Positions 7,577 to 16,454 of a stretch of 43,734 nucleotides of DNA are shown piece after piece. Under the pieces are notes generated by a model that saw only the letters and a program-made list of their open reading frames with translations, was not told the origin of the DNA and made no database searches. This DNA comes from an uncultured Clostridia bacterium (GTDB taxonomy: Bacteria > Bacillota > Clostridia > Christensenellales > UBA1242): positions 1 to 43,734 of the forward strand of contig CANQIX010000006.1 of NCBI GenBank assembly GCA_947624105.1. The letters run 5' to 3'. The translations under genes were made by a program, and so were the position numbers. Numbering within the stretch: position 1 is the first letter of the stretch; each line of letters opens with the position of its first letter.

Positions 7577-8500
7577 ATGTTGAATAAGAAGAGTTTAGTT
7601 TTAAGTGATGTAAATAATTCGTCAAACAAGAAGGCAGTGCTAACGATTCAAAGCGATAACAACGATGTGAGTGGAACTCTTAGGCTATACAACTTTGAAA
7701 ATGACACCGGACTTTTGACACTTGGATTCTATATAGATGGCAAGGTGATAAAGAGTGGACTTACAAAAAAATCAAATATGTTTTACGGATTTTTTCTGCC
7801 AGAAGACATCTTAACAAAAAGGTTCTCTTGCGCAGTTATCGAATTTAAAAATGGCGATGCCGTTCCGCTTTTGTATGGCGTAAGCGAGGGAAGAGGAGAA
7901 GATGTTTATGCAAGCATCATTGACGAACTCTCTGCCGACTTTTCAAGCAGCAAGGTGCAAAGCGTGTTAGATAAGTATGGCGTCGACTATGGCGAAGAGG
8001 AGAAAAAAGAGATAGACGAAGAAATAGACAGGTGTATGAGCAAAGAATGCGAAAATTGCTATTACAAAAAATATTTCTACGAAAATTCGACCAAAGAAAA
8101 TGTCGAGAGCGAAGAAAATACCAAAGACAATCAAGTGGAAGAGGTGGAGGAGGAAGTTAGCGAGAGTTTTGTCAGCAAACTGAAACCACAGATTGACAAA
8201 CTCTTTGAAAACAATCCAATCGAAAAGAATTTGGAGGAGATTTTTCCAAACTCAAAATTTGTGAAAATTGAATATGAAGATGACGGCGATTTCTATGTTT
8301 TTGGGCTTTTGTATGAGGGCGAAAAGATAAAATACGTCTGCTATGGCATTCCTGCTGTCTATGAAGAAGAGCCACCAAAGGAACTTTCCGGTTATCCAAT
8401 TTTTGTGCCATTAGACAAGGAAAAAGCGGGCGGATTTGGGTATTGGCTTACCTATCAAGATGCAGAAACCGGCGAGCCAATCAAGGCGTCTATCGAGTAA
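7577..8500 (+). CDS. Uncharacterised cytoplasmic protein with a Cys cluster and acidic linker
   Basis: 307 aa, not recognised. The N-terminal part (about 1-115) looks like a beta-rich domain (repeated strand patterns such as GTLRLYNF and LTLGFYIDGKV). A middle segment holds C-x4-C-x2-C (Cys153, 158, 161; CMSKECENC), which could bind a metal or form disulphides. Residues about 175-205 are a Glu-rich linker. The C-terminal domain (about 205-307) is compact and ends in a Gly-rich stretch (GGFGYWLTYQDAETGEP). There is no signal peptide or membrane helix. The ribosome-binding site is AGGAG, eight bases from the ATG. It is followed after eight bases by a membrane-anchored hydrolase gene and is probably co-transcribed with it. 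Confidence 0.7.
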   Translation: MLNKKSLVLSDVNNSSNKKAVLTIQSDNNDVSGTLRLYNFENDTGLLTLGFYIDGKVIKSGLTKKSNMFYGFFLPEDILTKRFSCAVIEFKNGDAVPLLYGVSEGRGEDVYASIIDELSADFSSSKVQSVLDKYGVDYGEEEKKEIDEEIDRCMSKECENCYYKKYFYENSTKENVESEENTKDNQVEEVEEEVSESFVSKLKPQIDKLFENNPIEKNLEEIFPNSKFVKIEYEDDGDFYVFGLLYEGEKIKYVCYGIPAVYEEEPPKELSGYPIFVPLDKEKAGGFGYWLTYQDAETGEPIKASIE

Positions 8501-8508
8501 GGAGAAAT

Positions 8509-9441
8509 ATGAAGATTGTCGCGTGGGTCATTTTGGGAGTTTTGGGCATAAGCCTACTTGCACTTTTATATTACCTGGTTGTCGGCGAAATTTTGTTTAG
8601 ATTTGCCCTTGGAAAGAAAAATTTAAAGCAGAAAAAGAGAGATAAGCAAATTAAAAAGAAAGCGGAAGAGTATAACATAGACTTAGATTGGTGGAAAGTG
8701 GTCGACTTTCAAAAGGTAAACATACAAAACGAGGAAACTACTCTTGTGGGGCATTATCTCAATCAGCATTCTGGCAGAAGTGTGATTTTGGTTCATGGAT
8801 ATTGTGGCGACTATCAAGAGATGCAACCTTATGCAAAATATTTCTACACTCACGGCTACAATGTTTTGTGCGTTGAAAACAGAGCGCACGGCGAAAGCGG
8901 TGGCGAGTGTGTTGGAATGGGCTATCTTGATAGACTTGATGTGATTAAGTGGATAGAGTATTTAAATTCAAAGAAAGTTACCGACATCGTTTTGTTTGGA
9001 ATTTCGATGGGCGCAGTTGCAGTGTGCTGTGCTGCCGGCGAGGAACTTCCGCTAAATGTGAAGTGCGTGGTTGCGGATTCGCCTTTTGAAAGCACGGTGG
9101 CGCAGATTGGATATGTGATAAAAAAATATAAGGTGTTTGGAAAAGTGATGTTAAAACACCTTTTGTGCTATGCAAAACACACAAAAAAGATTGACCTTAT
9201 GCAGTGGAACACGATAAGATGCATACAAAACATCAAACTTCCAACCCTTTACATTCACGGGAAAGCGGATAGATATGTATCGCCAAAATCCTCGCTTAAA
9301 CTTTATAACTCTACACCTTCCAACTTGCGCGAGTTGTATCTTGTTGACGGCGCAGAGCATATCAAGTGCTATAAGGTTGCGGGAAATATGTATGAAAAAA
9401 AGATAAATATGTTCTTTAACAAATACAAAGTGTTTAAATAA
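8509..9441 (+). CDS. Membrane-anchored alpha/beta hydrolase
   Basis: 310 aa from the ATG at 8509, which has a GGAG site; the ORF-track start at 8443 lies inside the upstream gene and has no such signal. One N-terminal membrane segment (about 5-28) is followed by a basic stretch and a catalytic domain. This shows VHGYCGDYQEM (oxyanion region), RAHGES, the nucleophile elbow GISMG (Ser), an Asp in HGKADRYVS and the His in GAEHIK, so the Ser-Asp-His triad is complete. It resembles the YqkD/BAAT-like family of anchored hydrolases. The substrate is unknown. It ends at a bidirectional terminator. Confidence 0.88.
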   Translation: MKIVAWVILGVLGISLLALLYYLVVGEILFRFALGKKNLKQKKRDKQIKKKAEEYNIDLDWWKVVDFQKVNIQNEETTLVGHYLNQHSGRSVILVHGYCGDYQEMQPYAKYFYTHGYNVLCVENRAHGESGGECVGMGYLDRLDVIKWIEYLNSKKVTDIVLFGISMGAVAVCCAAGEELPLNVKCVVADSPFESTVAQIGYVIKKYKVFGKVMLKHLLCYAKHTKKIDLMQWNTIRCIQNIKLPTLYIHGKADRYVSPKSSLKLYNSTPSNLRELYLVDGAEHIKCYKVAGNMYEKKINMFFNKYKVFK

Positions 9442-9465
9442 AAAACGGCATTGCCGTTTTTTTTT
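9441..9465. terminator. Bidirectional terminator
   Basis: Inverted repeat AAAAACGGC-ATT-GCCGTTTTT between convergent genes, with T runs on both strands. Confidence 0.8.
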
Positions 9466-10831
9466 AAGCGTGTTTGTTTTCTTCCTCAGGTGTAACTGGA
9501 TCGTCATCTACAAGCGCCTTAGATTCAAGTTCTTTAAGTTCTTGTTCATTCAAGTTTACATTGTGAGGAATTGGTTTCCATTCAACTTTTGTGAAGAGTG
9601 CGATGTAGTTTGAAATGTCGCCAATCACGTCAAATAAGAAGAATAAAAGGGAATATTTTAAGGATTTGAAGAAACTATAGTTTAAGATGCGTTTTCGGTA
9701 GAATATGCTGACATACATCGAATAAACAAGTCCAATCGCAAACTTTTTAAGAATGTCATAGAGTATGCTCAGCCCAATAGCACCTAAAACTCCCCAAACC
9801 TGAAAACCGATAATTCCAACGATGATTCGCAATATCCAAGAAAGCAACTTTCTTGCGGCACTTTCGATTGGGCGAGGGAAGTTCAGCCAGAAGCAGTCGT
9901 AACTCTTTACAAAACTGCTGTCAAATTTGGTCAAGTTTTTAAGCAGTTTTGGGCAATTTTCAACCGAAGAAAGCAAATGCCCTTTTGCCCATCTAATACG
10001 TTGTCTAAAGGCGACTTTAAGTTGATAAGGTTGTTCGTCATAGAAAACCGCTTGTTCGCAATAGGTGATGTTGTAGTTTTTGATTGTTGCATCAGAGCAA
10101 AACGCTCTGTCTTCTGTTAAGGTGAGGTATTTCCAGCCGTCCTTAACAAGTTCGTTTGCAAACAGAAATCCCGTGCCTTGCACACGACAAGAAAGTCCCC
10201 CCCCGGCGGTCAAAATGCTCTTACCTCTGTTTTCCGCAAGGCAGGTGCGCATCCAGTGTATCGCATACTGAAAGGAGATCCAATTTTGATAGATGTTTTT
10301 TGAATTTCTAAATGAAGTAATAATTTTATTTCCAGAAGCAAAGGCTTCGTTCATACGGGTTATGTAGTCTGTGTTAAGCACATTGTCGGCATCGAAGACG
10401 AAATATCCATCAAAACCTTCAATTGTGTAGTCCTCTTTTATCTTTTCAAACAGATATTTAAGGGCATAACCTTTTGTGCGTTCATCTTTGTTGTTATATT
10501 CATAAACTACAACATTTAAGTCGTTATATCTTGAAAATTGTCTGCACACTTCTGCGGTGTTATCGGTGCAGTTGTGGGCGATTACAAACACGGTCAGCAT
10601 ATCGAGGGGATAATCTTGCTTTGCAATACTTTGAAGCAGATTTTCGATAACCTTTTCTTCGTTTCGTGCTGCGATGCAAATTCCATACTTAAAACGCTTG
10701 TCAGTCTTTGGATATTTTCTTGTCTTAAAAAATCCTGCAAGAAAGATAATTACCCTATGAAATTGCAAAACAAGCAGAACTGTTCCTATGATGCTGAGAA
10801 CCTTTATAGCAATATTAAGCGCGGCTTCCAT
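9464..10831 (-). CDS. Membrane glycosyltransferase, family 2 (processive type)
   Basis: 455 aa. A family 2 inverting glycosyltransferase of the cellulose synthase/IcaA style, probably building or elongating an envelope polysaccharide from a nucleotide sugar on the inner face of the membrane. It has an N-terminal membrane segment (about 5-35), then a GT-A domain with AARNEEKVIENLL, the DAD metal motif (FDADNVLN, near 148), TED (near 240) and QRIRW (near 278), followed by about three C-terminal membrane segments. All key motifs are present, so it looks functional. Codons in the segment LTAGGGLSC contain a run of eight G on the coding strand, notable beside the G10 frameshift two kilobases away. 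The start has an AAGGA site and a good promoter. Confidence 0.9.
   Translation of the reverse strand: MEAALNIAIKVLSIIGTVLLVLQFHRVIIFLAGFFKTRKYPKTDKRFKYGICIAARNEEKVIENLLQSIAKQDYPLDMLTVFVIAHNCTDNTAEVCRQFSRYNDLNVVVYEYNNKDERTKGYALKYLFEKIKEDYTIEGFDGYFVFDADNVLNTDYITRMNEAFASGNKIITSFRNSKNIYQNWISFQYAIHWMRTCLAENRGKSILTAGGGLSCRVQGTGFLFANELVKDGWKYLTLTEDRAFCSDATIKNYNITYCEQAVFYDEQPYQLKVAFRQRIRWAKGHLLSSVENCPKLLKNLTKFDSSFVKSYDCFWLNFPRPIESAARKLLSWILRIIVGIIGFQVWGVLGAIGLSILYDILKKFAIGLVYSMYVSIFYRKRILNYSFFKSLKYSLLFFLFDVIGDISNYIALFTKVEWKPIPHNVNLNEQELKELESKALVDDDPVTPEEENKHA
10197..10204 (-). repeat. Homopolymer tract, G8 on the coding strand
   Basis: Eight C on the plus strand (eight G in the coding sense) inside the GT2 gene, in frame here. 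A change of one or two bases would truncate the enzyme before its TED and QRIRW motifs. Confidence 0.85.
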
Positions 10832-11771: not shown

Positions 11772-12164
11772 ATGGAAGAACAAGTTACAAAACGCTCATT
11801 CGACTTAAAGACTTTTCTGAAGTGGGCATTCATCGTTGGAGCAATCGGCTTTGGAATCTACCTTTTGGTAGTAATCATCGTTGCTTGTGTTGCGCCAAAT
11901 CATATCAATGTAGTTATTTCTAACACACTTTTTTCTGATTTTGCCGAAACGTTGGCTTACGCCAGTGTGCCAAACGCATATAACGGCGCTTATGGGATAA
12001 GAACCTTCTATCCACCATTATCATTTTTGATTTTCTGGCCTTTCACCCTGTTCTGCAGCGGACAACTTAAAGCATATGTGGGGGGGGGGAGATGTCGCTT
12101 GCCCAATTATCAGCGACACCAGGGTTCATCTGCGCTTACCTTCTCTACTTTGCAATTAACTTAG
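11772..12164 (+). pseudogene. GT87/DUF2029-like membrane glycosyltransferase, N-terminal part, frameshifted at poly-G
   Basis: The first 106 or so codons encode the start of a polytopic membrane protein: a cytoplasmic N-terminus, a membrane helix at about 17-42, and the luminal loop SDFAETLAYASVPNAYNGAYG, then FYPPLSFLIFWPF, typical of GT-C glycosyltransferases. At ten consecutive G (12080-12089) the frame is lost; the remaining residues (RCRLPNYQRHQGSS) are nonsense before the stop. The true continuation is the ORF at 12092-13189. Removing two G (G8) or adding one (G11) would join the two into about 472 residues. Ribosome-binding site and promoter are intact. This could be a phase-variable OFF state or a sequencing error in the homopolymer. 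Confidence 0.85.
12080..12089 (+). repeat. Homopolymer tract G10 at the frameshift junction
   Basis: Ten consecutive G in an AT-rich genome, exactly where the glycosyltransferase frame breaks. Together with the C8 run at 10197 it is the longest G/C homopolymer I noticed in the window. Confidence 0.9.
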
Positions 12165-13189
12165 CAATAATTTTGTATGTTGTTGCAAGAATGTCGAAAC
12201 TCAAAGGAATAAGCCTATTCTACTTACTTTCACTTGTTGTGTTCTGTGGGCCACTTCTTTTTGAATTTGTAAGAGCAAACAACACTCTGTCAACCTGTGT
12301 TTTTGCTTTGTTGTTCTTCTATTTCAGCGGAAGAAAAGACGAAGAAACCAAACTTTGGAGACGTGAACTTTCGTATGTTTTCTTGGCGCTGGCAATTTGT
12401 ATGAAGATATATCCAGCCGTTTTAATCCTCTTCCTTATTTGGAGAGAAAAGGGTTGGAACAAACTTTGGGCTGTGCTTCAAACAATTGCATTTGCCCTTG
12501 CATTTGTCTTTTTACCATTCTTGCTTACAGAGGGCGGATTTAGCAATATCAGTGAAATTTGGAAAAACTTCCGCGGATTTTCTGGCGCAAGTGTAAGCGC
12601 TGCTAAGTGGAGCGACAATCTCGACTCTCTTGGCGGACAGGCAGGTGATTATCTTGCCGAATCTGTAAAATGGGGCACAAACATCTCTATCGAAACGATA
12701 ACTTTCTATATATGCTACGTTTTAAGTATTATGTTTGGTGGCGTAAACCTCAGCGGTATGCAGCACATTTTAAGTATGATTCTTCGTTTCAGTTTGCTGA
12801 TTTGTGCAGTTGTTTTGCCTTGTATCAGTTTCAAATCAAAGAAATATAAAGAATTTGTTGCTCTTGCTGTTGGAACATATATGTTGTTCCCAGGCGTTTG
12901 CAATGGTTACTGCTTAACCCTTATGATTATTCCTTTTGTCATCACAATCCTCGATTGGAACAATATGTCAAAGGGCAACAAGATTTTCTACTCGATATTC
13001 TATGGACTTCTTATGTTTGCACCTCTATACACATACGGAATATACGTGCCATCTGCAATCGCAACCCTTGTGATTGTTACAAAATCGATTGTAGATATAA
13101 TCATTGACGATGTAAAAACTTTCAAGCAGATGCACCAAGAGAAAAAGGCAAAAAAAGTTAACGAATCATCAACACAAAAAGAAGACTAA
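12092..13189 (+). pseudogene. GT87/DUF2029-like membrane glycosyltransferase, C-terminal part
   Basis: 365 codons in the frame opened by the G10 tract. It has about nine hydrophobic segments and the GT87 signature region FEFVRANNTLSTCVFALLFF, followed by the basic, proline-containing helix ALAICMKIYPAVLILFLIW, as in polyprenyl-phosphate-sugar mannosyl/arabinosyl transferases. The tail is cytoplasmic and charged. Catalysis would take place on the outer face using a lipid-linked sugar; the acceptor is unknown. The ATG at 12092 lies immediately after the G run and has no properly spaced ribosome-binding site, so this half is probably translated only when the tract length restores frame. It is not degraded otherwise, which argues for recent or reversible inactivation. 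It ends at an intrinsic terminator. Confidence 0.85.
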
Positions 13190-14156: not shown

Positions 14157-16454
14157 ATGAATAAATTAAGAAAAATTAACAAATTTTTATATCCAATTCT
14201 CTCTTTGGTGTTCTTTACGCTTTTGTTCTATATTCTTTTAAACGCAAGCATAAATGGACGCCTTTTTCCGTTTGCTTTTGGTATGCTTTTTGCTCTTACT
14301 TGGGCAAATCAACCGGTCTACTTTCTTGCACCGGCATATATTGTGGCGGGGCTTTTGCACAATCTGTCGGTTGGCTATGCAATCGAACTTTTAGTTACCA
14401 TCTTTGTGCTTGTTGTCCCATACTTTATTCACGTGCTTGCAAAGAAAAACATCAAAAAGTGGGAACTTGGAATCTATGCGGTGTTAAGTCAAGTTGCAAC
14501 GGTGGTGCTTAAGTCGCTTGCAGATGGACTTGTGGTGCTTAACATCTTAAATGTCTTTGTTGGACTTGCCTTTATGTATGTTTGCATTGTCTTTTTTGAA
14601 GCGATGATAATACGAGGACTTACAAGCAAGTTCACAGTTTTAGAAATCATCTCGATGTTTGTGATTGTTATGAGCCTTTGCGCCGGACTTGTCAATTTGA
14701 ATCTGTTTGGATTTTCTTTCTTAAAATTGTTTGTGGCAATCTTAATCTTTGTGTTTGCATCGGCATCTACGCCGCTTCTTACAATGCTACTTGCAATCAC
14801 CTCAGGGCTTGGGGCATTGATTTCGACAAACTCCGCTCTATTTGTTGCACCGTTTGCCTTGTGGGCGCTTGTGTGTTTGGTGTTTAAAAGCAAGCATCGA
14901 ATTTTTATGGCGATAAGTGTGCTGTGCATCGAAGTTGTGATAAGTCTATATTTTAACATCTACGCATTTGGGCTTGTCGAAATTATGCCGGTTGCCTTGT
15001 CGTGCCTTATCTTTTTGATTATTCCAAAGCGCTTGCTAGAAAATTTGGCAACGATATTCAACTTCTCCAAAGATCGACTCGCTATGAAAAATGTGGTAAA
15101 CAGAAACAGGGAACTTTTGCATAAACGACTCTCAAATTTGTCGGAAGTGTTCAACGATATGAACATAATCTATCGCAATATGCTTAAAAAAGGTATGACA
15201 AAAGAGGACGTTATTGAGATTTTGATTGGCGAAATCAAAGAAAAGATTTGTGCGTTTTGTCCAGAACAAAATCACTGCCATTGCACTTTTGCCGAAAACA
15301 CGAGAAAGGTGTTTGCGGAGTTGATAAGCATCGCCTTTGATCGTGGAAAGGCAACGATACTAGATTTGCCGTCCTATCTAACTTCGCGTTGCAAACAGAC
15401 TGCCGGCATCTTGGGAGGAATAAACTCACTTACTGCGCAGTATAAAAAGTATATTTCTATGGCGGGCGATGTTGACACCAGCAAACTGATTATCGCCGAT
15501 CAACTGCTTGGCATCTCCAAAGTTTTGTCGGCGCTTGGCAAAGAAGTAAACAGCAACATCTCATTTGAAACGGTTAGAGAGAACAAAATCATTGATGACC
15601 TCACATATCACAACATCGTCTGCATTGATGCCGTCGTTTTTGAACAGGATATTCACACACAGAGCGTTTCGCTTGTTGTTAGAAATGAAGATAAAGACAA
15701 AGTGAGGATTGTCGACTGCGTAAGCAAAGTTTGTGGCAAAAAGATGACACTGTGCGAAAGTTTTTCAAGTTCGCGTCCAAATTACACCGTTTTAAACCTA
15801 AAAACTGCACCGCGCTTTGATTGTATGTTTGGTGTTGCGCAAAGGACTAAAAATGGTTCTAAGGTAAGTGGCGACACATATTCCATTCTTAAACTTGATG
15901 GCGAGCGAATTTTGTTTGCAATAAGTGATGGAATGGGGAGTGGCGAGAAGGCAGAAAAAATCAGCGAACTTTCGATTTCGCTTGTCGAAAATTTTTACAA
16001 GGCAGGTTTTGACAACGAACTTATTTTGTCGACCATCAACAAACTTTTAAATCTTCACAAAGAGGACATCTTCTCTGCGCTTGACATAGGAATCTTAGAC
16101 CTTAAAAACGGAATTGTTGACTTTATTAAGATGGCAAGTCCAACTTCGTTTATCCTTAACGCCGACTCGATTTCGGCGATAAAATCCACTTCACTTCCAA
16201 TGGGAATTGTGAGCGATGTTATGCCGGTTGTTCAAAAGAAAGTTATTAGCGGGACGGATTTAATCATTTTGGCGTCGGACGGAGTGAGCGACAGTTTTGA
16301 AAGCGATGAAGCGTTTGAAGAATGCGTGAAGGAGATAAAGACGAAGAACCCTCAAGAGTTTGCTGATGAACTTTTAGAGAGGGCGCTTTCAAACAACAAT
16401 GGCTATGCAGTTGACGATGCAAGCGTGCTGGTTATTAAATTGTTTGAAAATTGA
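14157..16454 (+). CDS. spoIIE: Stage II sporulation protein E, PP2C-type phosphatase
   Basis: A membrane-bound serine phosphatase that dephosphorylates SpoIIAA to release sigma-F in the forespore, and that localises to the polar division septum. At 765 aa it is near the usual length of about 800. There are roughly ten hydrophobic segments in residues 10-300, then a central cytoplasmic region with Cys-rich CAFCPEQNHCHC, then a PP2C domain from about 560 with ISDGMGSGEKA (metal Asp), DIGILDL, ILASDGVSDSFE and a final DDASVLVI. The gene is followed by tilS, as in other endospore formers. It starts at an ATG six bases after TAAAAT with no ribosome-binding site. It is the main evidence that this organism is, or descends from, a spore former. 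Confidence 0.95.
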   Translation: MNKLRKINKFLYPILSLVFFTLLFYILLNASINGRLFPFAFGMLFALTWANQPVYFLAPAYIVAGLLHNLSVGYAIELLVTIFVLVVPYFIHVLAKKNIKKWELGIYAVLSQVATVVLKSLADGLVVLNILNVFVGLAFMYVCIVFFEAMIIRGLTSKFTVLEIISMFVIVMSLCAGLVNLNLFGFSFLKLFVAILIFVFASASTPLLTMLLAITSGLGALISTNSALFVAPFALWALVCLVFKSKHRIFMAISVLCIEVVISLYFNIYAFGLVEIMPVALSCLIFLIIPKRLLENLATIFNFSKDRLAMKNVVNRNRELLHKRLSNLSEVFNDMNIIYRNMLKKGMTKEDVIEILIGEIKEKICAFCPEQNHCHCTFAENTRKVFAELISIAFDRGKATILDLPSYLTSRCKQTAGILGGINSLTAQYKKYISMAGDVDTSKLIIADQLLGISKVLSALGKEVNSNISFETVRENKIIDDLTYHNIVCIDAVVFEQDIHTQSVSLVVRNEDKDKVRIVDCVSKVCGKKMTLCESFSSSRPNYTVLNLKTAPRFDCMFGVAQRTKNGSKVSGDTYSILKLDGERILFAISDGMGSGEKAEKISELSISLVENFYKAGFDNELILSTINKLLNLHKEDIFSALDIGILDLKNGIVDFIKMASPTSFILNADSISAIKSTSLPMGIVSDVMPVVQKKVISGTDLIILASDGVSDSFESDEAFEECVKEIKTKNPQEFADELLERALSNNNGYAVDDASVLVIKLFEN

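Follow-up and report, generated by a model that had tools for sequence, protein, structure and literature searches.

Ten consecutive guanines on the plus strand of the window, the 43,734-nucleotide stretch of DNA analyzed here, lie where the reading frame of a GT87-like membrane glycosyltransferase gene breaks. The DNA belongs to Candidatus Caccovivens (GTDB UBA11517, family UBA1242, order Christensenellales; PMC8035907), a genus of uncultured gut Clostridia with genomes of about 1 Mb. Members of UBA1242 have reduced genomes and are thought to be symbionts or parasites of other cells (PMC12306168). The G10 tract is very probably a translational phase-variation (contingency) switch and part of a phasome that extends across the genome and the genus.

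The G10 tract and the GT87 gene

The N-terminal part of the gene (11772–12077, plus strand; 102 codons) encodes the first membrane segment and the first outer loop with the motif SDFAETL. The tract follows at 12080–12089, where the plus strand reads ...AAAGCATATGT-GGGGGGGGGG-AGATGTCGC..., and directly 3′ of it an ATG at 12092 opens the remainder of the gene (12092–13189, plus strand; 365 codons) in a frame that differs from that of the upstream ORF. Read through the tract, the upstream frame extends from the ATG at 11772 to a stop at 12164 (11772–12164, plus strand; 130 codons), yielding a truncated product of 130 aa, the predicted OFF form. The downstream half is a hydrophobic, multi-pass sequence and matches the Pfam GT87 profile over residues 10–162 only, with 43.1 bits against a cut-off of 25 (E 5.6e-11). 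Profile match and multi-pass hydrophobicity are shared with the GT87 polyprenyl-phosphate-sugar-dependent membrane glycosyltransferases, the transfer activity being predicted. An alignment revealed that FSDFAETL is conserved in the N-terminal half of the window gene and of its orthologues in the genomes G043 and G011; presumably, the acidic catalytic residue of GT87 enzymes resides in the first outer loop, which fits the position of this motif and a putative catalytic role. A PDB sequence search with the G043 orthologue returned no solved relative. Neither half contains another stop or shift, leaving the 467 codons free of any further lesion, as the preliminary description had maintained. Its proposal that a tract of G8 or G11 would rejoin the halves also holds: by arithmetic on the sequence, either length produces a single frame, of 471 or 472 residues. 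A G10 run arose in none of 100 dinucleotide-preserving shuffles of the window; in the window itself, GGGGGGGG occurs four times against 0.17 expected. An Rfam search of the window yielded one tRNA and nothing else.

Among the 112 genomes of the genus, only four hold the gene, the three others being G011, G015, and G043; a search with the GT87 half against named genomes gave no match. The G043 and G011 copies are unbroken, with 479 and 506 open codons. The N-terminal half of the window gene is 57% identical to residues 5–100 of the G043 orthologue and the C-terminal half 54% identical to the same protein; the two halves are equally conserved, and their alignments meet at the tract. Two frames thus flank the tract, and each half can be aligned over its full length with unbroken relatives, which confirms that the tract splits a single glycosyltransferase gene at its frame break. 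Conservation of the tract among orthologues, a comparison that the preliminary description had suggested, was not borne out: the corresponding sites read GCGGGAAAC, GCGGAAAC, and GCGGGACT, with only GG or GGG in G011, G015, and G043 and no long tract in any of them. Since the orthologues lack a long tract at this site, the tract was apparently acquired in the line of this species. Judged by the criterion of the preliminary description, its absence elsewhere weakens the case for the GT87 locus taken alone, but is expected if tracts come and go; the set of phase-variable genes commonly differs between strains and species (PMC11868660). G015 and G043 are about 97% identical over the GT87 locus. 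The G015 copy (L013, G015:C6, approximately 7838–8824) is one G shorter and frame-shifted at the codon of the window's tract, with two Gs only at the shift site, whereas the near-identical G043 copy is intact.

Tracts elsewhere in the genome

The genome is a 50-contig draft assembly of 0.96 Mb. Its G/C runs number seven of exactly 6, none of exactly 7, six of 8, two of 9, and one of 10, whereas a first-order model based on the composition of the window expects about 46 runs of exactly 6 and 8.7 of exactly 7. G/C runs are therefore avoided in this genome, yet lengths of 8–10 reappear, with nine tracts of at least 8 observed versus approximately 2.1 expected. The second tract of the window, a G8 on the coding strand of a GT2 membrane glycosyltransferase gene (9464–10831, minus strand; 455 aa; Pfam PF13641, E 1.1e-22), lies at 10197–10204 (minus strand), 1.9 kb from the GT87 tract, and is in frame, leaving the gene intact (ON). 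It resides in a short four-residue insertion (GGGL) absent from the orthologue L078; in GT2 proteins, tracts have been gained at two different loops, three others carrying a Gly-rich insertion in another loop. Because GT87 and GT2 proteins are both membrane glycosyltransferases, the obvious guess is that they build a surface glycan.

Further coding tracts include a G9 out of frame on contig C1 and a G8 in frame on contig C11, both located in genes for membrane proteins that, on a reading of their sequences, are probably acyltransferase-like; Pfam Acyl_transf_3 accounts for four matches in the pooled set of tract genes, not resolved to single genes. In C21, a tract at codons 6–8 of a lipoprotein gene is in frame. 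In C15, a C8 tract (L009:1421–1428) lies a few codons from the C-terminal end of a membrane-protein ORF (L009:576–1451) and may vary the C terminus instead of switching the protein ON or OFF, since a change in length would alter only the tail. C-terminal phase variation known from Helicobacter canadensis and Neisseria is similar, the C15 tract being the single case in the genome.

Three tracts occupy promoter spacers. In C12, the promoter TTGACT-A-C9-GCGAGA-TATAAT precedes a lipoprotein ORF by 42 nt; in C40, TTGACA-AAAATTCGC-G8-TAAAAT lies 5′ of a membrane-protein gene; and in C10 (L006:3878–4012), TTGACT-A-C8-GCGAGAC-TATAAT has no downstream ORF. This layout is that of the Neisseria fetA and porA promoters, in which a poly-C or poly-G homopolymer between −10 and −35 varies spacing and expression (PMC5320596); the effect on expression in the present genome is predicted. 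About 100 nt 3′ of the near-consensus promoter of C10, a hairpin followed by a T-run was noted at L006:3976–4012. A putative small RNA under phase-variable control could start from this promoter; alternatively, the hairpin may only terminate a convergent recombinase gene. An invertible promoter at C10 was considered and rejected, as no convincing inverted repeats frame the tract.

Tracts across Candidatus Caccovivens

GGGGGGGG was found in 101 of the 112 genomes of the genus, in 2,353 overlapping sequence windows. The total is estimated at about 1,200 tracts of at least 8 against 187 of exactly 7, with a mode of G9; each genome has some ten contingency loci of poly-G/C. From some 40 of these genomes, 127 distinct tracts were classified, their lengths being 8 in 34 cases, 9 in 70, 10 in 20, and longer in three. 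The flanks match TTGACA/TATAAT without mismatch in ten, with one mismatch in 34, and with two in 11, against 0.05, 0.25, and 3.45 expected from shuffled flanks; 44 of the 127 thus have at most one mismatch where 0.3 are expected, mostly with spacers of 15–18. By class, 55 tracts are of the promoter type (45 of them with an ORF 6–160 nt downstream), 38 lie in coding frames, 32 at frame breaks, and two are unclassified; the assignment is rule-based, and some coding assignments, short ones especially, will be wrong. A G or C run of at least 7 occupies the spacer in 126 of the 149 exact promoter matches listed for the genus, compared with a clear homopolymer of at least 7 in one of about 150 matches listed for the order outside the family, a list drawn from a small number of families. 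Searching the order with the S7 promoter pattern was uninformative, the non-family matches listed representing mixed G/C spacers of GC-rich genomes. Since such mixed spacers also match the pattern, the contrast of 257 versus 11 promoter matches for the genus partly reflects ordinary promoters, and the homopolymer-specific counts are relied on instead. In the family outside the genus, 157 promoter matches were obtained versus 24 for a reversed control, with clear G9–C13 spacers in some genera. G143, from another genus of UBA1242, features promoter spacers with G10–G11 and C13 runs, and the tract system may be older than Caccovivens.

Tract genes encode glycosyltransferases, acyltransferases, lipoproteins, and large repeat surface proteins; their neighbors are largely housekeeping genes. 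Pfam assignments for 99 tract genes include Flg_new (List_Bact) repeats in 17, GT2 families in six, acyltransferase 3 in four, and DUF285 in four, alongside GLUG, collagen, LRR, UDP-galactopyranose mutase, and pyruvyl transferase families. Among 102 neighbor genes, TMEM164-like proteins, sigma factors, tRNA synthetases, and other core functions are commonest, and Flg_new occurs in two. An N-terminal hydrophobic segment occurs in 80% of promoter-tract genes versus 30% of neighbors. Six paralogs in G015 (L059–L064), encoding secreted proteins or lipoproteins, each bear a G9 just after the signal region. Although all six tracts are G9, between them they show every one of the three possible frame relations, and the ON or OFF state therefore cannot be read from tract length alone. 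In Candidatus Caccovivens faecavium (L056, G119), tracts occupy the same places as in G001, a genome of the window's genus; around trigger factor, no conservation of tracts was seen in named relatives. Several tracts in G001, G008, and G009 are no more than a few hundred bases from the end of a contig, which suggests that assemblies break near tract loci.

Tract lengths differ between copies and between relatives. Promoter copies within one genome, with identical boxes and spacers and differing in the tract alone, read G8/G9 in G021 and G030, G7/G8 in G041, and G9/G10 in G066. The sister genomes G015 and G043, 89–92% identical around three promoter loci, differ by one G at two orthologous promoters and retain a run of 9 at the third; slippage may not account for both differences, as one of them could be a base substitution at the edge of the run. 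Such variation is thus observed at other loci of the genus, the GT87 tract being represented by one strain. Loss of mismatch repair was rejected as the cause of the tracts because mutS1 is kept in 111 of the 112 genomes.

Competing explanations and known systems

Slipped-strand phase variation is a textbook mechanism. Projected from the present data and from established systems, slipped-strand mispairing at replication would add a G to the G10 tract or remove one, at a rate likewise to be surmised from those systems; one frame would then give the full GT87-like membrane glycosyltransferase of about 471–472 aa (ON) and the two others a truncated product (OFF). The tract would be among about nine contingency loci of the genome, within a phasome that spans Caccovivens and parts of the family and takes two main forms: poly-G within the coding frames of genes for lipoproteins and surface-sugar enzymes would switch translation, and poly-G or poly-C between −35 and −10 of surface-protein promoters would switch transcription through spacer length. 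Its purpose may be to diversify what the cell displays on its surface, as a response to phages, host immunity, or partner cells. The preliminary proposal of a phase-variable poly-G switch gains its support from the genome- and genus-wide set, with its bimodal lengths, its occurrence within promoter spacers and genes for surface components, its mixture of ON and OFF frames, and its length differences at promoters. Positions, frames, statistics, and gene classes, as well as length differences between copies and related species at other loci, are direct observations: the repeats exceed what composition predicts, they lie where a change in length alters a frame or a promoter spacing, and the genes concerned mainly specify surface structures. 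Against this explanation stand the absence of the tract from all three GT87 orthologues, the shift in G015 at a site without a tract, and the retention of mutS1, which would make single-base tracts less mutable.

The switch reading does not rest on the OFF state of the assembly, which could be a base-count error. Poly-G lengths in draft metagenomes are unreliable, the present assembly is a 50-contig draft, and the gene is conserved along both halves, so that the tract at 12080 might in truth be in frame and the GT87 gene simply intact. Miscounting, however, creates no tract of at least 8, similar tracts occur in genomes that differ in source and assembler, and preferentially in promoter spacers, and an in-frame length would merely represent the ON phase; a mere counting error is accordingly considered very unlikely. 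It is similarly improbable that GT87 is a young pseudogene whose G run reflects passive decay. The gene is out of frame in the assembly, its G015 orthologue is shifted at the same place, and only 4 of the 112 genomes hold it; yet the 467 codons bear no other lesion, decay does not favor G runs of 8–10, and intact genes of the same genome carry tracts in frame. A G10 run could also permit transcriptional slippage, and an ATG directly follows it at 12092, so that programmed slippage of polymerase or ribosome might supply some full-length protein without any change in DNA. This has equally little to recommend it, since both the promoter-spacer tracts and the length differences in sister species and paralogous promoters would be left unexplained and, with the tract missing from the orthologues, there is no conserved slippery design.

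A close parallel to the proposed phasome is Campylobacter jejuni, whose capsule and LOS glycosyltransferase loci likewise carry poly-G of 8–11 inside coding frames for surface glycans, with many loci per small AT-rich genome and lengths centered on G9–G10 (PMC8355987). Mutational bias keeps the C. jejuni tracts mainly at G9 and G10, and the genus mode of G9 is close to that equilibrium. C. jejuni lacks functional mismatch repair (PMC8355987), whereas Caccovivens retains mutS1; unlike C. jejuni, 55 of 127 Caccovivens tracts are of the promoter type, in a Clostridia lineage with no known link to disease. Three transcriptional loci are described for N. gonorrhoeae NCCP11945 (PMC5320596), compared with a main, genus-wide class in Caccovivens. 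The mechanism is known, but seems undescribed in this lineage: a literature search combining phase variation with Christensenellales, which left most subscription journals outside its range, found no report, and the papers searched on UBA1242, among them PMC12306168, do not describe it. We give about even chances to the broader claim that a genome-reduced, apparently non-pathogenic gut Clostridia family maintains a multi-locus phasome of Neisseria or Campylobacter scale, with a main promoter-spacer mode despite mutS and possibly a small-RNA promoter (L006:3878–4012). If true, it would constitute a counter-example to the confinement of multi-locus phase variation to pathogens, and would give a presumed symbiont a means of changing the surface presented to hosts, partners, or phages. 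More than 100 sequenced Caccovivens species make the matter directly testable with existing metagenome reads. Seemingly broken genes in Caccovivens assemblies may only be in the OFF phase. Separately, the window contains a gene for the sporulation phosphatase SpoIIE (14157–16454) in a genome of 0.96 Mb; sporulation genes have been termed unexpected in the reduced family UBA1242 (PMC12306168).
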